DNA of 64,000 nt, from NCBI GenBank assembly GCA_014871385.1, contig CM026423.1, forward strand, positions 6,796,967 to 6,860,966, written 5' to 3'. Numbering within the stretch: the stretch's first letter is position 1; the number at the start of each line of letters is the position of its first letter. A program made the translations under genes and the position numbers. Positions 4,785-62,900 of the stretch are shown here, piece by piece. This DNA comes from Ceratodon purpureus (Eukaryota; Streptophyta; Bryopsida; Pseudoditrichales; Ditrichaceae). The notes under the pieces are model-generated. The model did no database searches. It was not told the origin of the DNA and saw only the letters and a list, made by a program, of their open reading frames with translations.

Positions 4785-5641
4785 TTAGCCCCTAAAGGAC
4801 AATCTGCCACATTTGGGCTTTTTTGGAATTTGGTCATGTACCTATGAATGCAATTTATATCAGGATTTTCTGAACTTTTTATTCAAGGTGGGCCATTTGG
4901 AGATCTTCGTGTGGGTATTTTTATTTTTCAATTCCGACATCGGGATCAAAAGTTATGAAGGTTTAAGTGTCAAACGCTGCTCGTTGGGCAACTGCTGAAT
5001 TTTTCTAAACCACTATGAATGCAGCAAATTCTGCCCAAAACTGCCCAAAACTGCCCAAAATCTGCCCAAAGACGAAACTTTGAAATTCCACCAAAAATTG
5101 AGATTTTGATATTTTTCAAAAATAAAAATTTCTATGTATAGAGAAGGCAGTAGAGCATGTTCCCACCATTCGGATTTTTAACCCAATTTTTTTTCATATG
5201 CTATTTTTATTGTCCAAAAACGGCCTTTGATTGTAAATTTCAGTGTACCCCCTAGCGGAAAATGATTTTTTTGGCAACTTTCCACAACTTTCTGAATATA
5301 ATTTTCTTAATAAAATTAGCTAACTCATTCTTCTTTGACGTGCATCAAAACCCCCAAAATCCATAATGCAAAAAATGGTTTTTTGGGCCTTCAAAACTTT
5401 TTTGTCCCCTTTTTTTGCAGCGAAAAAAAACTTGTTTTTCAACTTTGAACGTTATGATCTTGCAATTGGTGAAGAATGAGTGTGTGAGATTTGGTGGACA
5501 TGTAGACATAGAAGTTAGCTACAAGATCTTACGGTTGGATGTTCTAAAAAAGACCCCAAGTTTGCAAAATTCACTTTGCTTTGAAGAGGGGCCGTTTTGA
5601 GGCAGTTTGATGAAAAATACCCTCAGAACTTTAGGGGTTAA
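4785..5641 (+). mobile_element. piggyBac-like non-autonomous element, copy A
   Basis: An 857-bp element. It begins TTAG-CCCCTAAAGGAC (4785; the first tetramer is one base off TTAA) and ends AACTTTAGGGG-TTAA (5641). The terminal inverted repeat is CCCCTAAAG followed by weaker similarity. TTAA target tetramers with C-rich ends are the hallmark of piggyBac elements. No transposase is encoded, so this would be a MITE-like passenger. The interior, including a CTGCCCAAAA string repeated at 5030-5070 and the segment 5415-5600, recurs in inverted orientation at 42603-44312. Confidence 0.78.
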
Positions 5642-12705: not shown

Positions 12706-13482
12706 TTAACCTAAAGGACAATTTGCTCCATTTGGGCTTTTTTAGAATTTAGGCATGTATCTATGACTTCAATTTGAATCAAGATTTTTTGAAACTTTTT
12801 GTGAATGTTTACTGTAATAAGGACTTTTAGGGAATCTAATTTTTTTTAATTAGACATTTAAAAAAATAGTTATGGTGCCGGAAGTGAAATTTTGTGTTTG
12901 GTAGGCAATTTGGGCAGCCGTGCTAAATGCATTTGATACCAATGAGATTATTTTTGCAAATAATTAATGTTGACATCTTTGAGATTCTCCAAAAAAAACT
13001 TCTTTCAATACAAAATGTTCACTCCACAAAAATTAGTTTTTTAGGTTTTTTCTTTTTTTCACTTAAAGGATGGACATCAATCTCTACTTTGACCGTTTGA
13101 ACTGGCACTTTATAACATAATGAAATTTCTATGAAAGAAATATGAATTAGCATTCTTGTGTATTCAACTTAATAGAAATATTGTTTTCAACATGCTACAC
13201 TTGTCTTTTGTGTGTACATTTTTTTATACAATTAGCTAACTTAGTCGTCTTTGTCATGCTCCAAAACCCTCAAAATCCATAATGCTAAAAACCTAAGAAA
13301 AAAAAAAAGTAAGAGTGTGTCAACCTAGTCAAAAATTGTGTTAAAAAATTTGTTTTTAATCCTTAATGTTGAAATCGACCCGATCAACGCTGATCTGCTT
13401 GAAAGTTTTTATAAAAATTGGAACTTTGACTAGATATATCTCAAGATCCATATGGTCGAAATTGATAAACTTTAAGGGTTAA
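12706..13482 (+). mobile_element. piggyBac-like non-autonomous element, degraded copy B
   Basis: The left end TTAACCTAAAGGACAATTTG (12706) matches the start of copy A (4785) with two C residues lost. The right end AACTTTAAGGG-TTAA (13479-13482) matches copy A's right end with a base change. Interior blocks also match copy A: GGACAATTTG..TTTGGGCTTTTTT near 12716-12751, and TTAGCTAACT..CCATAATGC near 13233-13285. The copy is AT-decayed and older than the nested pair at 42.6-44.3 kb. Confidence 0.65.
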
Positions 13483-15479: not shown

Positions 15480-17172
15480 AAATTCATTGATGAAGGACTC
15501 CTTGTCCCCACTTCCCAGCCTATTTGGCACAGGTCGGCAATGACAAAGTGCATTCATTTGTTTTGCGTTCCAATTCGGATCGACCTGATGCTCTTTGGCC
15601 TCTGCTACAAAAAACCTCCAAGAAATACAAGTGCAACTCCTAGGCTTCCGAGCCCCTCGCTTTGCAGCCTCACAACGATAACGGTTCCTTCGTCTTCGTT
15701 ACCGGTGGCCAATTTCGTGCACTACCTTCTCCCAATCCCAATGAGGATAGTTTCTGAAACTAGCCAACAAACCCTCCAAAATGGCGTCCACCCGTGCACC
15801 ATGCTTCTGCACAATCCATGACTCATGGCAATCTTGCAAATGTACACAGCACATAGCTTTAACCCCTAAAATTCCTTGACTGTAATCTCACAAAAAACCA
15901 TGAAAAACGCAGTATTTGGAAGTTGGAGAAGAAATAATATGTTTTTTTAGTTTTTTCATCATTTAACCGTAAGATCTAATACTCAACTTGGTTTTTCAAG
16001 TAAGCACAAAATTTGAGAGCAAGATGACCATTAGATTCTTAGATTATATGGATCAAAGTTGCAAAAGAAGATTTTTTGGGGTTCAATCTGGTGACAAATT
16101 TGAACTTTAGAAATTAATATCTTTTTTTTGAATGGGTCAGAAATTGATTGAATAGCAAGGCCATGTTAACAATTGAGTTAAGTCTTCAAATATAAAATCT
16201 TGAAAGAAAAAAATTCATATTAATTTTTTCATAAAACATTTACTAGAAGTGGGTACAAAATGGAAGGAAATAGAAAATCATTTATAAGTTTGACATGGAA
16301 TTGTAAAATGTCAATCTTAACGGTCAGAATGTTGTGCTTAAAGGTCTTCACCTAGTTCTTTTTATTTCATTAAAAAATATTGAAAATTGAGTTTAGAAAT
16401 GAGCTTCAAAGATTTTTTTGTCCAAAATGCCTAAGAAACATATCTCCTCATAACTTTTATCCCATTGCTCATAATGGGTTGATTTATAGCTTCAATTGTA
16501 GATATAGATCAACCAATCATGAATCCAAAAAAAAAAATTGAATTTTTTTTTTTTTTTTTTTTTTTTTTCTTGGTGCTCGATCCTGCTTTGAAAACTTCAA
16601 ATGCTTATAACTTTTGCAATACTTATCGGAATGACGTGAAACAAAGTGCTACATGTAGAGTATAGTTTTTGGAAACTACACTAAAATATTCATTGAAAGT
16701 TTTAAAAGTATGAGGTCCCTGGAGGCTGCCCAAGAAGTCGAACGACCAAGTTCTGGTTGCGAAGAATTTTAGGGGTTAACTCGACTTCGAAATGCCTGCC
16801 CTAATGATACTCGTTGCATGATATCCACCTATTCATTCTGCCTGTGAAAATGCTTTTCGCTTTGATGTTGACGCTGCTGATGTTGTAGCAATGGTACATC
16901 ACATCCTCTAGATGGGGATGGGCCAGACGTTGGAGCAGAAACTTGTGCAGCTGGTGAACATTGGCCTTGCATGCATGGATTAGGCATATTTGACTCCTCC
17001 TAAGTCTCGGCATTTGGATCAACTCTGGAGGGACGCTTGTTGCTGCATCGTGTGCCGCTGACATCCTACTACATGCCACCACGAATGATCACTCCGGCTC
17101 CTCGCCTCAAACTGTTAGAATTGTTGCCTTGTCCAGTATTAAACATGGAAACTCCGAGGCGTGCAGAGGCCA
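15480..17172 (-). pseudogene. Decayed minus-strand coding remnant split by an insertion
   Basis: Two minus-strand segments flank the insertion at 15859-16779. The first (about 17172-16780) begins MASARLGVSMFNTGQG and continues through an S/Q-rich stretch with several in-frame stops. The second (about 15858-15480) reads VDAILEGLLASFRNYPHWDW, then a basic stretch and VDPNWNAKQM. The composition looks protein-coding, but I cannot name the family. It may be the second gene of the CACTA element or an older passenger gene. Confidence 0.3.
15859..16779. mobile_element. piggyBac-like non-autonomous element, subfamily 2
   Basis: A 921-bp element with both TTAA tetramers (15859-15862 and 16776-16779). 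The terminal inverted repeat TTAACCCCTAAAATTC is perfect over 16 bp. The interior differs from copies A, B and the nested pair, so this is a separate subfamily sharing only the ends. It contains a T homopolymer of about 26 (16543-16568). It sits inside the CACTA element and splits a minus-strand coding remnant. It has no coding capacity. Confidence 0.8.
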
Positions 17173-22299: not shown

Positions 22300-25083
22300 T
22301 CATGTTTGAAATGCATAGTACTGCACATCTCCTGTAATAACAGGAACGTCAATCTCTAAGGTTGAGATTCGAGTTTTATGGTACAATCCTTTTTCAATTT
22401 CTTGAACTTCCTCACAAATCTTTGTGAAATTTGGTCTTCTCTCAGGATTTCCATGCCAACAGTCCTCAATCAACGCCTTCAATTGTGGATGTAGATCAGA
22501 AGGCAAGCTTGGTCTGTGCCCTGAAATCACTCTGTAGTATTGCTCATACCGAAGGTGACCCTGAAATGGAAGGTTTCCTGTCAAGACCTCGTAGCATATC
22601 AGTGCGAAACTGTACACATCGGCTGCCTTGAGGTCGGGCTTTATAGACCTGTCAGATGTTCGAGTTGGAAGAATTTCAGGTGCACTCCAGAAACTAGTGC
22701 GGTCTGCATCTAAATAATCTGATGCATCAAATTTACTTGGACCTGCAATATGCTCATGTATTGACACACCGAAGCCCTGAAGTTTGACATCTATGCATCC
22801 TGTGCGTACGTCCACAAGCACCTTGACAGAAGACAAGGATCTGTGCATCACCCCATTTGAGTGTAGAAATAACATTGCCAGTGCAATTTTCTTGATGATG
22901 AGCACGGCTTCGTGGATATCAAAAGGCACAACAACGCCAAGTTTCTCTTTCTTTCCTGTAGCCAGTTCCCTTCTCACCATTCGGGATCCAATCAGTCTTC
23001 ATAACAGAGACCCATTCATCATCTCCATAACAATCAGGAACTGCTGCTTTGCGTCAATTGATAACCCCACCAACTGGGCTATGTAAGGATGGCGACTTAG
23101 CTTGATAAGAAAATCTACCTCCCTCTGCTGCTCTCCGTAGGATGAGCCTCCAAAGATCAATTTCTTCACCACCACCGAGGAGCCTAACCAGGTTGCCTCA
23201 TAAAATTTAGCATTACTTCCTTGAAGAATATTTCGCACTTTCACGAGCTGGCTCGGCTCAATTCTCATATGTTCTGGTAACAAAAGCGAACTGTTAGATC
23301 GTTCTAACCTATTCTTCATCGATAACGAGTCCAAGTTGATTACCTTGTGTGAAGAAGAAAGGGTGTATTCCTTCCCTTGGTTCACCAGGTGCACCCGATG
23401 GATAACCTTCTTGCAAACATGAAGTAGAACACTCCTCCAATGTTCATGGTTTCTTAGGGACTTGTTCGCAGGGATGGCATTCATTTGAGACTTGAAATAC
23501 ACCAACTCCTTGCAAATTTTCTCAAAGTTTGGCCGATGACTTGGATCACGATCCCAACAGGAGTTAATAAGTCCCTTGAGATTGCCATCTAAGTTGTCAG
23601 GCAACTCCGGTCTGAGACCCGAAATCACTGTACCATATTCGTTGTATCGAAGTCGGCCTGTAGAGAGCTCGTCTTGGAATGGAAGCTTTCCTGTCAAAAC
23701 TTCATAGCGCGTCATCGCGAAACTATACACATCCGCTGCCATGAGGTCGGGCGTGCTGAGATTGCCAACAGTTTCTGTAGGTAAGATCTCTGGTGCTCGC
23801 CAAAACCCAGTGCCTACACCAATCACAGCATGCATTGTGTTTGAATCTACATGTCGTGATGCACCAAAATCCACAATTTTGATCTGCTGATTGGAGCTGC
23901 CGAAGTATCGAACCAACACATTGGGCGACTTCACATCCCTGTGAGCAACCCCTTCAGTGTGGAGAAACCACAACCCCAGTGCAATCTTGGTGATGATGTC
24001 CAAGGCTTCAGAGAATTTGAAGGGAACAACACTAGGTGCCACATCAATGTTCTCTATTTCCATGATTGACCTATTAGCTTGCATTTGACAATCAATCAAA
24101 TCTCTCAAACTATACTCCATCCATTCCATCACTATGGAGCATCGTTGTTGCGAGTCAACCGATAAACCTATCAACCGCACTATGTGAGGATGACGAAGGT
24201 TGCTCAAGAATTTCAGTTCCTGCTGAAGTTCGAGAACCCAAGTCCTGCTATATGCTGCCAAAAATCTCTTCACAGCACATTTGCAACCTAACCAGGTTGC
24301 TTCATACACCACTGCGGAGGCTCCCCTCCCAATCCTTCGTCCTTTTCGGATGTCAGATGGATTGATTCTCAGATGACTGGAAATTGAAACAGGATGGTTT
24401 TCTAACTGTTGTTCTCCAACATATGAATTGTTCCACCCACTTGATGCAGACGTAACAAAACTGTCCAAGCTAGTGATATCTGAATCCAATGCCGCACGTT
24501 CCAACATTTTGGACATCTCCTCCATGTCCTTTTCGGCATCTGCCGTTACCAAAGCAGTCCCAAACTCTAGGGTTGGTTCGAAGCCTTGCATGGTGTCAAG
24601 CTCTTCGTGAATCTCCTTAAATTCTCCTGATCTGCAATCCGGCCCACTCACCACCCTGATGATTCCTTCCCACTCTCTAAAATACAAGATCAGAGCCTCT
24701 CCTCTTTGAAGGATTACCAGGAGCTTGTCAATTGCAGGAAGTATACCCTTGCTGCTGCCGCCGTTACTCAGGGATTTCTCACAAACAAAGTCACCCTTAT
24801 CGAACCCTAAGGCCTTCAATTCATTACCAATGGCACTGAAACGATCTGCCATACGCTTGCATTGGTGTTTGTTCACCCATACAGTGCTCGATATGTTGCA
24901 AACATTATCTATCACTTGTAAGGCCTGTGAGACTTGACAAATCAGCTCCTCCTCCAAATCCCCCACACTGGAAGCTGATGGAGATTTGTTCGAGATAGAA
25001 CCATCCCTTCCTACTATTTTAGAGGCCATATCCACACGTTCCATCTCCATATCTGGAGATTCCAATTCAACGCTTGTCGCCAT
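22300..25083 (-). CDS. MLKL-like N-domain + kinase + pseudokinase, one in-frame stop
   Basis: An intronless gene. The first ATG is at 25083 (MATSVELES). The N-terminal ~190 residues are helical (VSQALQVIDNVCNISSTVWV, KQCKRMADRFSAIGNELKAL-like) and resemble the DUF1221/HeLo-type domain of plant MLKL-like proteins. Kinase 1 looks active: IGRGASAVVYE, CAVKRF, HRDVKSPN (about 23915-23950) and DFG (about 23870). Kinase 2 is a pseudokinase: the glycine loop is degraded (QGSNAKFYE), HRD is HRS with the catalytic Asn changed to Lys (HRSLSSVKVLV, about 22815-22855), and DFG is GFG. A TGA at 22999-23001 separates codon 694 from an in-phase continuation to 22300. As read, the product is 694 aa, cut inside the pseudokinase N-lobe. 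The stop would be an Arg codon (CGA) with one CpG transition. Alternatives are a sequencing error or a true truncated allele. Confidence 0.8.
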
Positions 25084-26909
25084 AGAAGTACCCTTGAGTC
25101 CTAGAGTCTTTGACAAAGCCAGGCTTCGTTACTCCCTACTCGACTAATTCCTGAGTTCAAGATTCTACCACCTAAGAAGTCCATCCTGATCGAGAAGCTC
25201 GAATGTAGTCTGCACTCTATAACTCTTTTCTCTGAAAGTCATGGACAAATGCCCAGAGCTCAACTTTTGAGTTGCATTAACTTTCAAGTGGAAAACCTTC
25301 ACTAGAGACTCTAATAAGTGGAACCATAAAGACCCTAACATACCCTAAACCTGAAACCGCAATGCGGCAACACAATACTATAACTTCTATTCTAATGTTA
25401 GACAAGAGTTGGCCTCTGCAATCATAGGTGTAAAACCTCAAGGAGACCTTGCTCAACACTGCTCCTAAACCGACAAGAACATTCTAACACATCTCAGACC
25501 AATGAAGAAAGAAAGGATGCATACCTTACAGTCCCACACGCCTTAATTCAGTCCTAGCTACAAGCCGTGAAAGTTTACGCAGTTGCAGACTCTTCTACGA
25601 ACATCAGCAACAACGACCTAGAGCAAGATATATGCTCAACATAACTTCGAAGCAGAATTCGAACACTGTCGGTCAGACAACGACGCTCGTAAATTAGCGA
25701 ACACAAACTGGTACTGCTTGGACAACGTTTAGAGGTGATTTGAATTATGATTTCTTCGACATGAAAGGTTGCGATATCTTCGACATCCCGTCCAGAAGAA
25801 AATTAAGAAAGCATTTCAATCTGCACTGCCGAGTGCGCGCCACAGCTTCGATTACAGGCTCTGGGTGGTGTTTCCGGAGTACAGTAGCTGCTGCTGCGAC
25901 CATGGATTCGAATTTGAGTTCATCAGTTCCACGATACTCCAGCTGGGTCAAGGAACCTCAACATGATGTAAGGAGAGGTTCTCACAATATATGGCAAGAT
26001 CCTGCACTATTTAACATCAATAACCCAAGCTCTCGCCCACAATATCCGGTGACCCATGTGAAGCAACATGGTCAGGCAGTTGATACCATTATTCATACCC
26101 AAAATCGATACTATTACTCATACACAATGTTGATACCTGTCCCTGACATGGAAACCATTGCAACACATGGTTCCGCAAGTCCACTTCCGGTTTTGCAACA
26201 TCATATCACAAAGCGACGCAAACTCTCGGTGGACAATGGACTCCACCAAGTGTGCATCATCCCAATCTCATTCCCACACATCGTCGTCTCTTCTCTCAGG
26301 CTCTTCGACCACCTCTTCCAATCCTGTGCACACACATCCCAAGCGAGCACCCGCCTCAACTCAAACTCTCCCTCCGCAGCCAGTGCACCATCACTGAACA
26401 GCAACCGATGGATCACGTCTGCAACCGCCGGAGCACTTGATCATCCTCGTCCAGAGTGAATGCGCGACATGTTGTTATGTGAATGAGAGGTTGAGGCTAC
26501 ATCTTTCTCTTTTTCCACCTTTGCAAGGTCAGTCACCGAACCGTCTTCCCATCTTGTTGATTCCCATCTTTCAAGCCTGGTCTTCAAGCATCAATTCACT
26601 CACAGCATTCCTGTGATTGGACTTGGATTCCAGCTGGGAAGCCAGTGGGTTCAATTGCAGGGTTTAATTCCAGGATTCAATTGGGATCAAGTGGCAACAA
26701 TTTTGGGAATTAGGTCGTGAATTCGCTCCATCATCCGATTTTTTCCCGAACGTTGGGTTTTTGTTTGGGCTCGGCCAGTGTTCTGGTTGCACATTTGGGA
26801 GGAGCGTTTTAGCTAGTGGGGAATCCGCCATGTTGGTCGCTGTATCTTCACCTATTTTGAGGATTTTGTAGCTGAGTACTAGGAAGGAGAGGGTTTGGAT
26901 TTGGAGGCG
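25084..26909. promoter_or_regulatory. Divergent intergenic region between kinase and TPR genes
   Basis: This 1.8-kb stretch separates two genes transcribed away from each other, so both promoters should lie here. I see no convincing shared element. A plus-strand frame at 25761-26459 is open for about 233 codons from its first ATG. It encodes an S/H/P-rich sequence (VPRYSSWVKEPQHDVRR) with no recognisable domain. It could be leader, an exon or chance. Confidence 0.4.
25761..26459 (+). CDS. Unrecognised ORF in divergent promoter region
   Basis: About 233 codons from ATG, beginning MKGCDIFDIPSRRK. It has no domain, signal or membrane segment that I recognise; it is rich in Ser, Pro and His, with a basic patch KRRKLSV. 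Competing frames are open on the other strand. It lies upstream of the TPR gene in the same direction and could be 5' leader sequence. Probably not a gene. Confidence 0.2.
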   Translation: MKGCDIFDIPSRRKLRKHFNLHCRVRATASITGSGWCFRSTVAAAATMDSNLSSSVPRYSSWVKEPQHDVRRGSHNIWQDPALFNINNPSSRPQYPVTHVKQHGQAVDTIIHTQNRYYYSYTMLIPVPDMETIATHGSASPLPVLQHHITKRRKLSVDNGLHQVCIIPISFPHIVVSSLRLFDHLFQSCAHTSQASTRLNSNSPSAASAPSLNSNRWITSATAGALDHPRPE

Positions 26910-36607: not shown

Positions 36608-37330
36608 GTTGGACACAAGACCGATACTCGTGTGATATCTCTATATACCCGTGGTGTTACTAGGGTGATATGTAGAGCGGGTATCTAGTTGCCGGCTATG
36701 TAAGCTTCGAGTTGCGAAGCGGAGGGTGCACTTGCGTCTTCGCGTTTGCGGCCACTTGCTGGAGCTTCGCTTTGGTGGAAGGTTCGAATGCCGCTAATTT
36801 GACGCCGGAGGAGGTGCTGCTGTGATTGTAATCTGGGGCGGAGGTTTCTGGAAGAGGGGAGATTGGAAGGTAGTGACGTGCATCGAGTGGAGTGGAGGTT
36901 TTGTTGTTGATGTTGTTGTTGTTGTGGAGTGAGAGGGTTGTCGTGTTTGCATTTGGGTTTGGAGAGGAGCGTGAGGTTGTCTATTTCTGTCAGTTTAAGT
37001 TCACTTAATGCGGATGAGTGGAGTTCGTGAGGGGCGGTGTGTGAGTGTGGAGTCTTGTTCTGTGGAGGTTTTGTTGAGAGGCGGAGTTTTAGCGACGGTG
37101 CGGGGTTGTGGAGGTAGGGGTGTGGTGGAGAGATAGATTGTCTGTTTCGTCGAGGATGAATAAGTTTCTTAAGACTTCGGGAGAGGACTTTGGACCGTAG
37201 AGGAGAGGAGGGCGTCGGAGGGGGAGTTGTTTACGAGGCTGCCGGCGAGAGGGAGAGGGCGTGTGTGAACTGCAACTAGTGCTGCTGCTGCGCTCCACTC
37301 ATCCATTTTGTCACTGCAATTCGGCTGGCT
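36608..37330 (+). promoter_or_regulatory. Promoter/leader region of the CDPK gene
   Basis: This region runs from the tandem array to the CDPK ATG. It is G/T-rich on the plus strand with GTTGTTGTTGTTGTGG near 36912. No TATA box can be assigned with confidence. A leader intron is possible but not shown. Confidence 0.4.
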
Positions 37331-38812
37331 ATGGCTGAAGTGGCTCTGTGGAATGCACCAGACCACCAGTCATATGAGCACCAGAAGTGTGTGGACCTTG
37401 CCGACCTCTACACGCTGGGAAGAAAGCTCGGAGAAGGGCAGTTCGGCATCACCTACCTGTGCACCGAGAATGCAACGGGGCTCAAGTACGCGTGCAAGTG
37501 CATCCCCAAGCGCAAGCTCAGCATCTCCGAGGAGGAGATCGAGAATGTGGGGCGCGAAATCGAGATCATGCGCCAGCTCGCGGGCCATCCCAACATTGTG
37601 ACCATCAAGGGCGCGCACGAGGACGCTACCATGGTGTACCTGGTGATGGAGCTCTGCGAGGGCGGGGAGCTCTTCGACCGCATCATCGAGCGCGGCACCT
37701 ACACCGAGGCCAAGGCCGCGCGTCTCACCCGCACCATCGTGGGCGTTGTGGAGGCGTGCCACAGCTCCGGCGTCATGCACCGCGACTTGAAGCCCGAGAA
37801 TTTCTTGTTCGAAACTATGCATGAAGATTCGGAGCTCAAGGCGGCGGATTTTGGCTCCTCCTGCTTCTTCGAGCCAGGTGACGTGTTCACAGAGATTGTA
37901 GGAAGCCCGTTCTACGTCGCGCCGGAGGTTCTGGACCGCCAATACGGCCCCGAAGCCGACATTTGGAGCGCCGGAGTGATCCTGTACATTTTGCTGAGCG
38001 GCGTCCCACCCTTCTGGGCCGAGACGGTGCAGGGTGTCTTCGAGGAGATCATGAAGGGCGAGCCCCCAAGCTTCGCCGCGGATCCGTGGCCCAACATCTC
38101 CGACGGCGCCAAGGACTTGATCCGCAAAATGCTAAATCCAAACCCGAAGCAGAGGATTACTGCCTCCGAGGTTCTACGACATGCGTGGATTCGCGAAGAT
38201 GGTGTCGCGCCTCACAAGCCCATCGCTTCTCTCGTGCAGAACCGCTTGAAGCAATTCGCGGCCATGAACAAGCTGAAGAAGCTCGCCATTCGCATCATCG
38301 CAGAGAAGCTCTCGGAGGATGAGATTGGCGTTCTGCAGAAGAGCTTCGCTGAGATGGACCGGGACAACGACGGGGCCATCAGCTTCGAGGAGCTCCGAGA
38401 AGGGCTGGTGATGGCCGGCACCACGCTGCAGGAGGCCGAGATCTTCGACCTCATGGATGCCGCGGATGTGGACCAAGATGGCTTGATCGACTACGGGGAG
38501 TTTCTGGCGGCGACTCTGAGCCTGCACCACATCGAGCTCGAGGAGAATCTCTTCGCCGCGTTCCAGTACTTCGACAAGGATGGCAGTGGGCTCATCACCG
38601 CCGACGAGGTCCTGGCTGTCTGCGGCGAATTCAGCATGGAGGATGTGCGCATCGAGGATCTGATTCACGAAGCGGATGTTGGTGACGATGGCAGTATCGA
38701 CTACAAGATGTTCGTGACGATGATGCGCAAGGGCAACGGCGGTGTTAGCCATCAAACGATGCGCACCACCCTGGGCATCACTGATGTCCTCGTCCTCGAC
38801 TCAGCTGTTTGA
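37331..38812 (+). CDS. Calcium-dependent protein kinase (CDPK/CPK), intronless
   Basis: Ser/Thr kinase regulated directly by Ca2+; 493 aa, one exon. The kinase domain is at about 27-287, with glycine loop GEGQFG (34-39), Lys56, catalytic HRD (150-152), DFG (173-175) and an APE motif (197-199). The autoinhibitory junction is at about 290-332. Four EF-hand loops follow: D343-E354, D379-E390 and D415-E426 are canonical; D449-M460 has Gly at position 3 and Met instead of Glu at position 12, so it probably binds Ca2+ poorly. The protein starts MAEV, so the usual Gly2 myristoylation site is missing, as are N-terminal palmitoylation cysteines. The start is the first ATG of the frame and directly precedes the kinase domain. 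Third codon positions are mostly G or C, unlike the neighbouring intron-bearing genes. Family CDPKs usually have several introns, so a retrocopy origin is possible. Confidence 0.95.
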
Positions 38813-42602: not shown

Positions 42603-44312
42603 TTAACCCCTAAAGTTCTGAGGGTATTTTTCATCAAAACTGCCTCAAAACAGCCCCTCTTCAAAGCAAGGTGGATTTTGCAAACTTGGGGTCTTTTTTA
42701 GTACATCTAACTGTAAGATCTTGTAGCTAACTTCTATTTCTACATGTCCACCAAATCTCACACACTCATTCCTCACCAATTGCAAGATCGTAACGTTCAA
42801 AGTAGAAAAACAAGTTTTGTTTTCCTGCGAAAAAAAGGGATCAGCAGAGTTTTGAAGGCCCAAAAAACCATTTCTTAACCCCTAATTGACCAAGGATGTT
42901 TTTGCTCAAAACTGCCACCAAATAGTCCCTTTTGAGTGCAAGCTGGATAGTGCAAAATTGAAACCAATTTTGGTATTCCCAACCGTAAGATCGTGTATCT
43001 AACTTCTATGTCTATGTGTACGTCAAATCTCACACTCTCATTCCTTACCATTTGAGAGATTATAACATTCAAAGTTGAAAAAAAAGTTTTTTTTACGCTG
43101 CAAAAAGAGGACAACAGTATTTTGGGGTCCAAAAAAACCATTTTTTTGAGTAGATTTGGATGGCGTTTCTTTAGATTCTTGTTCCTAGGTGAGTTAGGTA
43201 CATGTCCACAAAATCTCATACCCATGCAAGGTATAGAACCTTGAGAAAATCATCAATTTCCACAAGGGGGTGTGCTGAAATTCACATTCAAAGGCCGTTT
43301 TTTTACAATAAAAATAGCATATGAAAAATTCTTGGATTGAAAACCCAAACGGCGGAAACATGCTCTAGTGGCTCTTCTACATATAGGAATTTTTATTTTT
43401 GGAAAAAACTAAAATCTCGATTTTTGGTGGAATTTCAAAGTTTTGTCTTTAAGCAGATTTGGGCAGATTTTGGCAGTTTTGGGCAGTTTTGGGCAGAAAT
43501 TGCTGCATTCACAGTGGCTGAGAGCCTGCCCGTGGAAGGGCGTTTTATGCTCAGAGGAGCATAAATTTTGCTCACTTCATCCAAAAATAAATAAAAAAAA
43601 TATCCCCATAAACCTTTTGAAAAAACCTTTTTCCACAAAAAAATTCAAAAAATTTCAAGTAAATTTGAATTTTTAGGAACCTGCCCAAATTTAAAAAACG
43701 CCCATTCTAGGACTTTGGTCAATTAGGGGTTAAAGTAAATATGGAATGAATCTCTCCATATTATTGTTCCTAAGTGAGTTAGGTACATGTCCAAAAAATA
43801 TCATATTCAAAAAAGTTGTGGAAGGTTTCCAAAAAAATCATTTTCCGCTAGGGGGTATGTTGAAATTCACATACAAAGGTTGTATTTTGACAATAAAAAT
43901 AGCATGTGAATAATTCTTGGATTGAAAATCCGAAGAGTGGAAACATGCTCTACTGCCTTCTCTAGAAGTTTTTATTTTTGAAAAATATCAAAATCTCAAT
44001 TTCTGGTGGAATTTCAAAGTTTCGTCTTTGGGCAGATTTTGGCAGATTTGGGCAGTTTTGGGCAGAATTTGCTGCATTCACAGTGGCTTAGAACATTTCA
44101 GCAGCTGCCCAATGAGCAGCATTTTGACACTTAAACCTTCATCACTTTTGATCCCGATGTCGGAATCGAAAAATAAAAATATGCACACGGAGCTCTCGGA
44201 ACGGCACACCTCTATTTAAAATTTCAAAAAATCTCAATTTAAATTGAAGTCGTAGATACATGCCCAAATTCTAAAAAAGCCCAAATGTGGAAGATTGTCC
44301 TTTAGGGGTTAA
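42603..44312 (-). mobile_element. piggyBac-like element, outer copy C (interrupted)
   Basis: The outer ends are TTAACCCCTAAAGTTCTGAG (42603) and GTCCTTTAGGGGTTAA (44312). They match copy A (4785-5641) in inverted orientation over the whole interior. Another family member (42875-43733) is inserted at a TTAA. Removing it leaves about 851 bp, almost the length of copy A. The outer copy has the canonical TTAA at both ends. Confidence 0.85.
42875..43733 (-). mobile_element. piggyBac-like element, inner nested copy D
   Basis: An 859-bp element inserted inside copy C. The terminal inverted repeat TTAACCCCTAATTGACCAA is perfect over 19 bp, and TTAA is present at both junctions (42875-42878 and 43730-43733). 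Its interior is homologous to copy C, but its ends beyond CCCCTAA differ (TTGACCAA instead of AGTTCTGAG). The matching position of copy D's own sequence reads TTTTTTTGAGTAGAT where copy C has TTTC-TTAA-AGTAAAT, so the empty site can be read directly. It is younger than copy C. Confidence 0.87.
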
Positions 44313-45216
44313 GGTGTCTTCTTCCCAAAGCCATCAGAGCTCCCAACTTTGCAACAAAACCAATCTAACACTAGACTCTCCACTCAACCCTACCTTTCCT
44401 TGCAAGCATTCTCATACTTTCCCATTTCTCCTCTTTTCGGAGGAACCCATGTTGTCATGCTTTTCACTCACCTACTAAACCGGGAGTTTGTGCACCCATC
44501 CGCGCTCACCGCCGAGGTTACCTCAGTCTTTCTGTTTTTGGAGTAAAAAGAAATTGTCTCATCTCCCAATTCGCAGAGAGCTCTGAAAGAGGTGGAGCGC
44601 CCTCACAGATTATGGTTACAAATTGTGTAGAATGTGTCCCCGCTTTACATACCCAGACTCACGGTTTAATACAAGGCAACATGCCCTAAACCCTGAAACA
44701 AACGTCTCCATTCGCAATCACATTCAGGCCAAACCTCAACCCTGGTAATTCTAAAACCCAATGCAACATCATCCCCTTCACCTAACTTATTCCAAAAATT
44801 AATGCAACACCATTCTCTTCGTTTTACTTCTAAAACAATTGCAACATTTTTTTAAATTATTATTATTTTTTTAATTTTATTTTTTTTGAGTCAAATGGTG
44901 GAATATTGCAACATATTTCACTTCATTTAGCTCTAGTCTTGAGCATTGTAACATGATTAAGATGAGCATGTAATATTTCAGTCCTGGTGGCTTACTCAGC
45001 TCCAAGGCTACCATTACAGACTCATAATCTTCATCTTCAGGCCAGAGTTTCCTTTGATTGAGAGATAAGAAAGGTTATGATGTGCTATCAAAGTTTGAAG
45101 AACTTAGTCAGTTTGAAGGCAACCAACACAGACTCATAATCTTCGTCTTCTTCAGCCCGGAGTTTGTTTTCAGGGTTGTGAGTGTTTTTTGCACATTTTT
45201 GGGAGAGTTGGTGGCG
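44313..45216. other. Spacer and promoter region of the phosphodiesterase gene
   Basis: No gene was recognised; short plus-strand frames at 44287-44546 have no motif. The promoter and leader of the gene starting at 45217 must lie in the last few hundred bases. Confidence 0.45.
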
Positions 45217-46659
45217 ATGGCGGACACGAAGGGGAAGCCGCCGCTGCTGCGCGACGCGCACCTGGGGCCATCGCTGGACCTGCCGCTGCTGGACTCGCCG
45301 CGGGTGCAGGAGGGGCGGGTGGACCGCGCCGTGCGGAAGAATTGGCTGCTGTGGGCGACGGCGTTTCCGCTGCTGAACGGGTTGGTGGTGTGGTTGGTGT
45401 TGTCGACGTTTAATAGTGGGAGCAGTGCGTCCGAATGTGGAGGATGGGGGACGGCGCGGAAGCTGCAGAAGCTGGAGCATCCGATGGTGATTCTGATCTC
45501 CTCGGATGGATTCCGGTGGGGGTACCAGCACAAGGCGCCGACGCCGAACATCGACAGGCTGCGGGTGAATGGGACCGAGGCGGAGACGGGCATGATTCCG
45601 GTGTACCCGTCGCTGACGTTTCCGAATCACTACTCGATTGTCACGGGGCTGTACCCGGCGTGGCACGGCGTGATCGGGAACTATTTCAGCGATCCGGACC
45701 CGAACAGCAGCGAGAAATTCAACATGCAGAACCATAACCCTAAGTGGTGGCTCGGGGAGCCCATTTGGGAGACTGTGGTGAAGAGCGGGCTCCCTGCTGC
45801 GACGTACTTCTGGCCCGGGAGCGAGGTTTTGAAAGGCCCGTGGAAGTGTCCAGAAGAGTTTTGTGCGCATTACAATGGCTCGGTGCCGTTTGAGTCTCGT
45901 GTGGACAGCGTTTTAGGGTTTGTGGATTTGCCTGCTGAGGTTCGGCCGAGGTTGATCACGCTTTACTTCGAGGAGCCGGATGAGGAGGGGCATGTGTATG
46001 GGCCTGATGCGCCGCAGATCACCGAGCAGGTGGTGCGTGTCGATGCGATGATTGGGAAGTTGATGGATGGGTTGGAGGAGAGGGGTGTTCTGGAGGATGT
46101 TACGATTATCATGGTTGGAGATCATGGCATGGTTGGGAATTGTCCTGATAAGGTGATATATCTTGAAGATCTGGAGCCGTGGATTAAGGTGCCTGCCGAT
46201 TGGGTTGATTCGTATTATCCTGTTTTCTCCATTCGGCCATCGCCGGGGGTGGATGTGGGTAGCGTTTTTAGGAATATTACGGAAGGATTGGCGTCTGGGA
46301 AAGTGAAGAATGCTGAGTTTGTGAAGATGTACTTGAAGGAGGATTTGCCCGCGAGGTTGCATTTTTCGGGGAGTGATAGGATTCAGCCGATTATTGGGAT
46401 GGTGGCCGAGGGGTATAGAGTGGCTGCGAAGAGGACGAGGCGGTCCATGTGTGGGGGTGCACACGGTTATGATAATGCGTATCTTTCCATGCGGACGATT
46501 TTCTTTGGACATGGACCACAGTTTGCCAGGGGCAGGAAAGTGCCGTCCTTTGAGAATGTTCAGCTGTATAATGTGATGACGTCCATTCTTGGCATCCCGG
46601 CTGCACCTAACAACGGCACTCCTTCGTTTGTAGAGTCTGTCCTTCTGCCGAATCCCTAA
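45217..46659 (+). CDS. Ectonucleotide pyrophosphatase/phosphodiesterase (NPP), intronless
   Basis: An alkaline-phosphatase-fold enzyme that cleaves nucleotide pyrophosphate or phosphodiester bonds; plant members act on the secretory or cell-wall side. 480 aa from ATG 45217; the frame is open further upstream but has no earlier ATG. A short cytoplasmic N-terminus is followed by one membrane segment at about 43-63 (WLLWATAFPLLNGLVVWLVL), giving a type II anchor. Active-site residues: Asp97 (SSDGFR), nucleophile Thr134 (YPSLTFPNHYSIVTGLYPAWHG), Asp255/His259 (EPDEEGH) and Asp302-His303 (GDHGM). A later conserved histidine is in CGGAHGYDN. The C-terminus ends at the catalytic domain, with no nuclease-like domain as in animal NPP1-3; this matches plant NPPs. 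One exon, G/C-rich third positions, like the CDPK gene. Confidence 0.93.
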   Translation: MADTKGKPPLLRDAHLGPSLDLPLLDSPRVQEGRVDRAVRKNWLLWATAFPLLNGLVVWLVLSTFNSGSSASECGGWGTARKLQKLEHPMVILISSDGFRWGYQHKAPTPNIDRLRVNGTEAETGMIPVYPSLTFPNHYSIVTGLYPAWHGVIGNYFSDPDPNSSEKFNMQNHNPKWWLGEPIWETVVKSGLPAATYFWPGSEVLKGPWKCPEEFCAHYNGSVPFESRVDSVLGFVDLPAEVRPRLITLYFEEPDEEGHVYGPDAPQITEQVVRVDAMIGKLMDGLEERGVLEDVTIIMVGDHGMVGNCPDKVIYLEDLEPWIKVPADWVDSYYPVFSIRPSPGVDVGSVFRNITEGLASGKVKNAEFVKMYLKEDLPARLHFSGSDRIQPIIGMVAEGYRVAAKRTRRSMCGGAHGYDNAYLSMRTIFFGHGPQFARGRKVPSFENVQLYNVMTSILGIPAAPNNGTPSFVESVLLPNP

Positions 46660-55174: not shown

Positions 55175-55277
55175 TTAAAGAATATCCATCTAACTCTTCG
55201 GAGAACGTTTTTTTGGTGAAACATAGTTAAGGAACTTTAGGGGTTAAAGAATATCCATCGAACTCTTTGGAGAACAT
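55175..55277. repeat. Direct repeat with piggyBac-like end remnant
   Basis: TTAAAGAATATCCATC-AACTCTT-GGAGAAC occurs at 55175-55208 and 55244-55277 with two differences. Between them, TTAA-GGAACTTTAGGGG-TTAA (55227-55247) matches the right terminus of the piggyBac-like family, with a TTAA on each side. This looks like a remnant left after imperfect excision and repair. Confidence 0.65.
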
Positions 55278-55954: not shown

Positions 55955-56691
55955 GGGGGGAAGCACAATAAAGTGGACCAAAAAAGTGCTTAATTATTTG
56001 ACAATTTCAGCCCGTTGTGTAAACACGCAAGAAAGTGGCATCTAAAACTTCTTGATGGAAAATTAAGTTTGGAATACGGAAAGTAGACTTCATGGACTGC
56101 AACTTCTAAAATTTGTGTTTGTAGTTGTTGAGTTGAGACACCTCTATGAACACCACAAAGTTGAACAAAGTGAATGCAGTCATTTGGAAAAGTGACCGTA
56201 TTACATTGTATTTTTGACAAAAATCACTTTTGACTTTGCGGGGCCCTTCATTTGTACATTACGCTTGAAGAAATGATCCGGGTGGCCGTGTTTGCAATCC
56301 AAGATTAGCAAGAAGTACCGCAAGGATGTTTTTCAAACATTGTTTTCTGCAAAACTTTTTGTGAGGTTTTTTTCACCGAACATTGTTTTTTAAAATGGAA
56401 AAAACATCCTCTGAAGACAATAGAGGGCTCCAAATGAAGAAATTAAGACTTTGGAAAAATTCATTTTCATGATTTAGAACCAGCGGTCAAATTAAGTTTC
56501 AATTGAAGATGTTTTTTTTATGGAGATGCCTGTAAGATACCTTATGACACCTTAGAAAGTGACTAAAATGCTCAAAAACTACACCAAAATGCTCAAAATC
56601 AGCTTTGAGCAGTAAAAAACAACACACTTCATATTCACTTCCTATTGATCACATGTTGCACTCTATGGTACACTTTATTGTGCTCTCCCCC
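55955..56691. mobile_element. Unclassified MITE-like element (737 bp)
   Basis: The left end GGGGGGAAGCACAATAAAGT and the reverse complement of the right end, GGGGGAGAGCACAATAAAGT, are inverted repeats continuing to GGACCA/GTACCA. ATGA lies on both sides (55951-55954 and 56692-56695) and may be a 4-bp target duplication. The superfamily is not assignable. There is no coding frame. Confidence 0.65.
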
Positions 56692-59711: not shown

Positions 59712-59920
59712 TCTCTGAGTCGAAGCGGAGGAGCAGGTTTGCGAATCAAGAGTGAAGGCTTTTGTGGCACGACTCTCTTCCATGTCATGAGAGCTTTGTA
59801 GTTTTCTTGTTCTCTGAGTAGAAGCGGAGGCGCAAGTCTGTGAATCAAGTGTGAAGGGTTTAATTGTGGCTCAAGTTTCTTCCATGTCATGAGAGCTTCG
59901 TAGTTTTCTCGTTTCTGAGT
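59712..59920 (+). repeat. ~100-bp tandem duplication in the TBL leader
   Basis: A unit starting TCTCTGAGT(C/A)GAAGCGGAGG and ending with CTTCCATGTCATGAGAGCTT plus GTAGTTTTCT is present at 59712-59810 and 59811-59911. A third unit starts at 59912 (TTTCTGAGT). It lies directly upstream of the start codon, probably within the 5' UTR. Confidence 0.8.
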
Positions 59921-59957
59921 ATCTATCAACTTGTGGGTTGCTAGAGGATCCTTCAAG

Positions 59958-62900
59958 ATGGCGGTGAAGGCGCCGCCTCGGAAGCTGACCCATTCAGGCA
60001 GCCGGAGACATATGTGCGGGTACTCGATCGGAGTCTCCACTGTTTTCATCTCCACCTTATTATGCATGTTCATCATCTGCTTCTTTTTCCTGGACATGGA
60101 GATGTTCTACCGGAAAGCGGGGTTCACAAACCCACCGCCGGTTGTCTTACAGACCCACAACTACGGCCTCGGGCACTCCGCATCTGAATCACTTGCAGAG
60201 CTGATAAATTCCACTTCCGTCGTCGCAACCCCAGCTGTGGAAGTCATCTCATCGAAGGAGGACACAGACAGAAAGACGGAGGAAGATGTTGGTGGGATTA
60301 ACGAGCTGCGTGAGGACGCGTCACCAGCTCAGGTCGATATAGAGCCAACCCAAATCGATGTGGTGCCATCTCGGGTCGATACGGAGCTAGCCCGCGTGAA
60401 CGTGGAGCCTTCTCAGGCGGAGAACAGTATTGCACCGGAGGACATTCTCATAGTTCCCGAAGAGGGTGAAGATGTGACCCCGAATGATGAGACAGTTCTG
60501 GAGTCAGCTCCGGAGGAGTCAGGTTCAGTGGACGAAGCGAAGATTAAGATGTCGCGAGAGCCTCGCTCTTTGGTTGGGTGTGATATCACGCAAGGGCAGT
60601 GGGTGTATGACAACGTTTCCTACCCGCTGTACCACACGAGGAACTGCCCGTTTGCGGATCCCGGGTTCCGTTGCGAGGAGAACGGCCGACCAGATAAGGA
60701 GTGGATGAGCTACCACTGGAAACCACACGACTGTGATCTACCCAGGTACGGTGATGGATCTCCTCTCTCTTCGTCACGATGGAACAATTATTTTCTCTCG
60801 ACAAATATTCACAAGGATGGGCTCGAGTTAACGGAGTACTTCAATAGCGTAACGTAATCAACTTGGTCGCTAAAATTGAGGCCTGAAATTGGTGAAGGTC
60901 ATGGCAATCCGGGAAACACCTAGCTGTTAGGTTTACTGTCTACTTTCTAGAAGAACACGATCATTTGTACACAGACGGCCGGGTCATGATGGAACCTTTT
61001 TTCTACTTTTTCATTTCTTGTCCCTTCTGCCAGCTGATAAAACATCACAATTATCAGTTCTGATTAACAAAGCATTTTTCACGAGCCCTAGGGATACTTT
61101 CAGGTCTTCATATCCCAGGCCTAAAAGTGGTGAAGGCAACGTATCATATTTTTTGCTTATTTTTGAAAGGAGCATAATCATATGTACGAAGAGAGATGGG
61201 TTTATTGAGTTTGACAGAACAATGGAGCAATAAGTCCAATTCTCAAGCAGAGATCTAGATTCGTAGATCGATCAATCGAAGTTTTGAGAATAAACATGTT
61301 ATTGAATCACGGCGGCTATTCAAAGAGGGGAAAGTTTGCATTGCTAGAATAGTATCCACTGTCTATTGACATGATTTTAATGTGATGCAAAAGGGCCCTG
61401 TTTTCCAAGGGTGCAGGATTGGAAATAGGTTTAGGTCCTCATAGGGATGAAGGTGAGTGTTCTGATGGTTGTGAGTGAGCCTTGTACTCAGGTTCAATGC
61501 AACGGATATCCTGGAGAGGTTGCGTGGGCAGCGCGTGGTGTTCGTTGGGGACTCCTTGGGACGCAACAACTGGGAGTCCATGTTGTGTATGCTGGCAGAA
61601 GGAGTGTCTGACAAATCAAAGATTTATGAAGTGAACGGGGAACCGATCACAAAACATTCCGGAAAGCTGGTCTATAGGTATAATTCTGACATGGTAGTTC
61701 ATATTTATTTAATTAATCTTAAAATGGACATCTATTAGAGATGATTCAATTTCACTGCAATCCGTCATGATCGCACTTCAACGAGTACACCTAGTAAATT
61801 ATCTATTGCTGGTGCTGATTCCTTATGTGAGTCATTGTTTGGAACAGGTTTGTGGACTACAACTGCACTGTGGAATATTACAGGGATCCGTTTCTGGTTC
61901 CCCAGACTCGACCTCCGAAGGGTTCCCCATCGAACGTGAAATGCGTTCTTAGAGTGGACCATGTGAGCTGGTCCGTAGACAAGTGGTGGGATGCGGATAT
62001 CATCATCTTTAACGCGGGCCACTGGTGGACTGAACATAAAATCTTTCGCCAGTAAGTACCCACTGTCTACTTGAACTTGTATTTTTCGCCTTTTAAAATT
62101 TAATTTCATTCGAGGCATACAAATATAATTAATTAATCCGTCAATAGAACAATAGCCGAAGTACATAGATTCCACTGTATTCGCTGTCAATAGAACAATA
62201 GCCGCTGTACGTGTACCTCTGTGTGCCCAACTGGCGCTGGTTTTTATGTTTCTTTCCTTTCTCGTGAACCGTTTTGTACTTTGATCTTTTGGGTTTGCAG
62301 AGGAGATGCTAAAGACGTGTGTTGTGGATGTATGCTATGTACAGGGGTTGCCGGTTTCAGGAAGGCAATGACCTGAAGCTTGAATACGATGTACCAACGG
62401 GTTTGGGAAAAGCATTGCGCACATGGGCCACTTGGTTGGAGAAACACCTGGATCCAAAGAAGAGTGAAGTGTTCTGGTTAAGTTTCCCCACCGTGCATTT
62501 CAGGTAATCCCTCAGTCTTACCCAACAAAACTTCCCGTTTAGGTCATGATCTTAGAATAATTTCCCTTTCAAACCAATAATCCATGACTCTATTTTGATC
62601 CAACAATTCATGACTCTAATACGAAGAAACAATTAGCAGCTCCATTTTCATCGTCAAGTACAAAACTGACCGTCACCTCTTAACTTATTGCATAACTGAA
62701 CCCGTTCTGATAAGTGAGGGCCACATTTCATAATTTTATTTACTTTAATCAACTTACAGCGCGCAGTCACTATTTCAAGAAAGAATTGTTTCAAAAATGT
62801 AAAAACAAAAACAAAAAACAAATTCTTCTCTTCACATTTAGCACCTAACTATTTGATGTAAACGCTCTGTGCTCTCCACTCCCTCAAACACACGTAACTC

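Follow-up and report, generated by a model that had tools for sequence, protein, structure and literature searches.

A non-autonomous piggyBac-type element nested at a TTAA of a related element, and its transposase-bearing relatives, in a moss genome

Introduction

The piggyBac element of T. ni has a CCC-type tip, and hairpin cut-and-paste chemistry is known for piggyBac. Duplications other than TTAA, among them CTAA and TTAG, have been reported for a few animal piggyBac elements in the available text of one source (PMC10813416), which also records that piggyBac has been isolated from plants. For land plants, the accessible parts of two reviews include PiggyBac among the superfamilies of angiosperm MITEs (PMC10004981) and among plant DNA transposons (PMC10794571), and a fern repeat table, as far as it is accessible, counts 1230 piggyBac pieces (PMC6890710). 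In the available text of a moss genome paper (PMC10619864) the word occurs as 'piggybacking'. No description of the piggyBac elements of a moss was found in the open-access literature, judged mostly by title and the start of the abstract and with subscription papers largely outside this scope. A sequence-only reading of the locus described here had held that land-plant reports are few. The superfamily is thinly documented in land plants, as that reading had it, but the angiosperm MITEs, the plant reviews, the fern table and the plant isolates just cited qualify the statement.

Results

The window, the whole 64-kb stretch of moss DNA that was analysed, holds a TTAA-bounded element at 42603 to 44312 (+ strand) that is interrupted by a second one. 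Without this insert and with a single TTAA retained, the outer element measures 855 bp; its inverted ends, at 42603 to 42615 (+) and at 44300 to 44312 (−, an inverted match to the left end), are 13 bp long including the TTAA, or 14 bp when the flanking C/G is counted. The inner element at 42875 to 43733 (+) measures 859 bp including both TTAA copies (42875 to 42878 and 43730 to 43733) and has perfect inverted ends of 19 bp at 42875 to 42893 (+) and 43715 to 43733 (−). Direct repeats of 238 nt at a spacing of 272 and of 246 nt at a spacing of 585 show that outer and inner sequences keep register to the left and to the right of the insert. At the nest junction the outer element reads CCATTTC-TTAA-AGTAAA, and the homologous stretch inside the inner element is CCATTTTTTTGAGTAGA. 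The nesting proposed from the sequence alone is exact, with the inner element placed at a TTAA of the outer one, inverted ends bounded by TTAA, and the outer sequence resuming in register.

Both copies had also been described as sharing their ends. This applies to TTAACCCCTAA, found at all four ends (42603 (+), 42875 (+), 43723-43733 (−) and 44302-44312 (−)), for which 12 matches with at most one mismatch were counted in the window against 1.25 expected from shuffles. The tips adjoining the target, CCCCTAATTGACCAA in the inner and CCCCTAAAG in the outer element, are CCC-type inverted ends as in the piggyBac superfamily. The 19-bp terminus, however, is a property of the inner subfamily only, and an end-to-end alignment of the outer element without its insert gave 73% identity to the inner one. 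Rather than being two copies of the same subfamily, inner and outer elements belong to separate but related ones. A third element of the window, an uninterrupted outer-type copy at 4785 to 5641 (−), aligned end to end with the outer element at 85%; read on the + strand it ends in TTAA on one side and TTAG on the other.

The likeness of inner and outer elements across their whole length could suggest an origin of the nest from related elements by duplication or recombination and not by transposition. Yet the breakpoints are located exactly at both 19-bp ends, the TTAA is repeated and the outer element continues in register, while the inner-subfamily copies fetched from the genome lie in different flanks, with flank similarity only at a few repeat-borne sites (e.g. 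L041, L042 and L061). We consider such an origin very improbable and attribute the nest to transposition of the inner element into the outer one. Since it is nested inside the outer copy, the inner insertion is the younger of the two.

Elsewhere in the window, a fragment of an outer-type element was observed at 12710-12852 (89% over 89 bp). A 921-bp element at 15859-16779 has the ends TTAA-CCCCTAAAATTC...GAATTTTAGGGG-TTAA; alignment of its body with the inner and outer elements produced no match, and it probably represents another piggyBac-type non-autonomous family. A 22-nt direct repeat occurs at 55177 and 55246, and a lone TTAGGGGTTAA at 55237-55247 lies where its second copy begins.

Among the neighbouring genes, an open frame with a type I phosphodiesterase/nucleotide pyrophosphatase domain (PF01663, 7.6e-101) at 45058-46659 begins downstream of the nest, 746 bp away, and its upstream region may thus include the nested elements. 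The window further contains a protein kinase frame at 22999-25128 with an adjoining frame, kinase-like in appearance, at 22300-22998, a frame that combines a kinase domain with EF hands at 37280-38812, and a PMR5N-domain frame at 59919-60857.

Both elements belong to large families in the window's own assembly (362,488,568 bases, 151 contigs). For the inner element, at least 39 other full-length or nearly full-length copies were found at 93-96% identity among 40 candidates scored (3365 in a first look), and its 19-bp terminus occurred 806 times with at most two mismatches (435 forward, 371 reverse) against 5 occurrences for the reversed control. A genome search with the 855-bp outer sequence yielded at least 40 full-length or nearly full-length copies at 90-93% identity. 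Pairwise identity among 41 inner-type copies ranged from 93.2 to 99.3% with a median of 95.3%, and the copy in the window was at most 97.8% identical to any other of them. These identities, to which no clock was applied, suggest an older burst of the inner family with some later movement. Both elements are non-autonomous, MITE-like and about 0.86 kb long. A TGGGCAG motif recurs in the MITE bodies; the idea that it serves transposase binding was dropped, since the motif is sparse in the transposase-bearing elements.

For a transposase associated with the inner ends, 100 listed exact 19-mer places out of the 806 ends were paired by hand. They gave 36 short pairs of about 0.83-0.90 kb and three long ones, with 22 ends left unpaired. 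The long pairs, L024 (5535 bp), L025 (5492 bp) and L026 (5431 bp), have TTAA at both edges, and all three, which are the pairs above 5 kb among these ends, carry a match to PF13843 (DDE_Tnp_1_7, the piggyBac transposase): at C12:6838839-6839978 without a stop in L024, at C6:87713276-87714415 with one TGA in L025, and at C11:15300244-15301383 with one TAG in L026. The presence in the same genome of a transposase with the same ends, a point raised by the sequence-only reading, is thereby established for the inner subfamily; some of the 806 ends beyond this hand-paired list may bound other cargo.

The transposase frames of L025 and L026 are broken, and L024 has an open stretch of 1019 codons with a PF13843 match of 1.4e-79. 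This frame aligned with the transposase of T. ni piggyBac (6x67) at 6.5e-27 and with piggyBat (9c0f) at 5.7e-25, its aspartates falling on those of both in the contexts IDE, DNxF and GVDxxDQ. The first methionine of the open stretch occurs only at residue 171, so that the frame gives no firm start for the L024 protein. A C-terminal zinc finger, PF13842, scored 3.8e-4 and 21.4 bits in L024, under the curated cut-off of 24, and a domain scan of the L026 piece found PF13843 only and no PF13842. Outside the transposase frame, at about 752-1241, L024 has a tandem repeat, one frame of which reads repeated SALCTVH.

Kolobok and Sola3 are superfamilies that target TTAA as well, and TTAA duplication alone does not separate them from piggyBac, so that one of them could in principle move these copies. 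Against this stand the PF13843 matches in three of three long exact-end pairs, the CCC-type tips, and the CTAA and TTAG duplications reported for piggyBac (PMC10813416), although the four motifs that the available text of that source names do not include the exact tip CCCCT. We regard a Kolobok or Sola3 origin as highly unlikely and retain the assignment to piggyBac made from the sequence alone, which agrees with PF13843 in the same-end elements, the TTAA target duplication and the CCC-type tips.

The relation of the non-coding copies to the transposase-bearing elements was followed along their length. The left 19-bp terminus of the inner element recurs without change at the ends of the 5.4-5.5 kb elements, and the last 40 bp of the inner element, which include its right terminus, agree at every base with the transposase-5' end of L024, L025 and L026. 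Over 174-209 bp, the right part of the inner element (43525 to 43733, −) matches the same end of these elements at 77-81%. The left 250 bp have in common with the three elements only the 20-bp tip and a weak stretch of 42 bp (seen with L026, at a local score of 24 where 60 shuffles reached at most 18). The middle, at about 250-640, reached at best a weak score with the ends of L026 (21 against at most 18 in shuffles); comparison with the ends of L024-L026 did not reveal a source for the middle. By sequence comparison, the inner family has its ends and one of its flanks in common with these three elements, yet it is no simple deletion derivative of them, because the middle and most of the left 250 bp find at best weak matches there.

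The ends of the outer element resemble those of two other transposase-bearing elements, L070 and L071, one end being TTAACCCCTAAAGG and the other TTAACCCTTAAAGG. No partner with exactly the outer ends was found among the transposase-bearing stretches fetched. The 1.5-kb flanks of 15 transposase matches held two single ends but no pair, and three wider stretches around transposase matches yielded two complete elements of 5339 bp and one single end. L070 and L071 are 98.4% identical over 5339 bp and lie on different contigs in different flanks; their longest open frames have 585 and 1042 codons, respectively.

A PF13843 profile search of the genome gave at least 116 matches, all 116 scored places (998 candidates) being above the cut-off, and none of 14 control genomes had a match. 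Eighteen transposase domains or frames, namely the 15 best genome matches together with L024, L070 and L071, fell into about six groups, between which identity was 34-54%.

The target was examined with the 17-mer CCCCTAATTGACCAAGG, which does not itself contain TTAA. It occurs 44 times in the genome, and TTAA directly precedes it in 41 cases, against an estimated 1% or so expected from base composition alone. In the three exceptions the same tetranucleotide was found on both sides in direct orientation, CTAA in L056, TTAT in L047 and ATAA in L085, which identifies it as duplicated target and not as terminus. Forty inner-type copies were fetched, 39 from the element search and one from the 19-mer search; in this set of best matches, biased to intact ends, 36 have TTAA on both sides, the junction feature that the sequence-only reading had proposed to check across the genome. 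The other four are L047 and L056, L064 with TTAA and TTAG, and L062, whose left end is lost. In the outer family, the eight best of 40 loci comprise five with TTAA on both sides, L072 with TTAT on both, L077 with CTAG on both and L075 with TTCA and TTAA. Other target duplications, named beforehand as evidence against piggyBac, thus do occur (three of 44), but each is one base off TTAA, is duplicated, and belongs with the variants known in animal piggyBac from the accessible text of PMC10813416.

Filled and empty sites provided a second view of the target. All 40 outer relatives listed lack the insert and are 847-868 bp long. In the eight of these that were inspected the nested site is uninterrupted, with TTAA at the homologous position in five, and L074 is identical to the outer element across the core CCATTTCTTAAAGTA of the nested site; the natural filled/empty comparison that the nest had promised is available in these relatives. 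In addition, for 12 of the 40 insertions, namely the two non-TTAA cases and ten selected others, the two flanks were joined and the genome was searched for the corresponding empty site. Matches across the junction were obtained for three. L047 yielded two empty-site loci, each with a single TTAT and no gap; two loci for L041 and one for L061 hold a single TTAA. Besides substitutions, these L061 and L041 sites differ by single bases within runs of T or A, in two instances adjacent to the junction. The remaining nine joined flanks gave no match across the junction among 40 candidates scored, which carries little weight because only these 40 were scored. Weaker empty-site evidence comes from a diverged paralogue of the L032 site in the window near 56230 (flanks 72% and 84%), which has TTGA where the filled site has TTAA. 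The empty sites found are paralogues, not excision products. TTAA-specific insertion is borne out by the 41 of 44 left ends that follow TTAA and by empty sites with a single tetranucleotide.

That TTAA is instead part of the inverted repeat, with a shorter true target (TA or TTA) or none, is compatible with the palindromic TTAA at most junctions, where a TTAA copy alone cannot tell, but is practically dismissed by the direct CTAA, TTAT and ATAA on both sides of one inner-type copy each, which are decisive, and likewise by the direct TTAT and CTAG of two outer-type copies and the single TTAT in both empty sites of L047.

Discussion

We interpret the inner and outer elements as non-autonomous members of the piggyBac superfamily, the inner one most likely moved in trans by the 5.4-5.5 kb elements with the same ends, duplicating a 4-bp target as it jumped into a TTAA of the outer element; we assign this reading a probability of about 95%. 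The transposase of the resident 5.4-5.5 kb elements would bind the shared 19-bp ends, cut the element out and insert it at a target of 4 bp, in nearly all cases TTAA, duplicating this target in the process, presumably by the hairpin chemistry of piggyBac. In the nest described here, that target would have been a TTAA inside a resident element of the outer subfamily.

The broader picture is less firm. We see about equal grounds for and against a diverse moss piggyBac population with about six transposase groups (34-54% identity to each other), at least two different sets of ends and numerous open frames of close to 1000 codons. Such a population would be the source of large non-autonomous families, the bodies of which do not derive by simple deletion from the transposase-bearing elements examined, and its movement would be recent enough to leave 98%-identical full-length transposase-bearing copies on different contigs. 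Within the open-access literature, this moss would be the first land plant for which all four components, transposase-bearing elements, MITEs, duplicated targets and empty sites, have been shown side by side.

The moss elements are new members of a known superfamily, and their interest lies in the host group. Source elements, MITEs, duplicated targets and empty sites are found together in one genome, and a rich piggyBac population, transposase-bearing as well as non-autonomous, is placed in a land plant, where the accessible earlier reports draw on MITE classes or on repeat tables. The target choice of piggyBac in a plant becomes readable from the natural filled and empty sites and from the few TTAT, ATAA and CTAA targets. 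The question is also raised whether mosses inherited or acquired these elements.

Among described systems, T. ni piggyBac (IFP2; 6x67/6x68) resembles the moss elements in its TTAA target and in a transposase core with aligned aspartates (E 6.5e-27). It differs in length, with 2472 bp in the available text of PMC10803768 against 5.4-5.5 kb, and its transposase has 594 residues against the 1019-codon open frame of L024. For piggyBat of Myotis lucifugus (9c0f), homology to L024 covers the core (E 5.7e-25), and the C-terminal Cys/His stretch aligned without significance; host and terminal sequence are different. The angiosperm PiggyBac MITEs are likewise small non-autonomous plant elements assigned to PiggyBac, in the accessible part of PMC10004981, whereas in the moss, transposase-bearing elements with the same ends are present in the same genome. 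Finally, Daphnia Pokey and its MITEs, as presented in the available text of PMC4912750 and PMC3849761, offer the parallel of putatively autonomous piggyBac-superfamily elements alongside MITEs; Pokey differs in using an rDNA site besides other places, a comparison that on the moss side covers the tetranucleotide alone.
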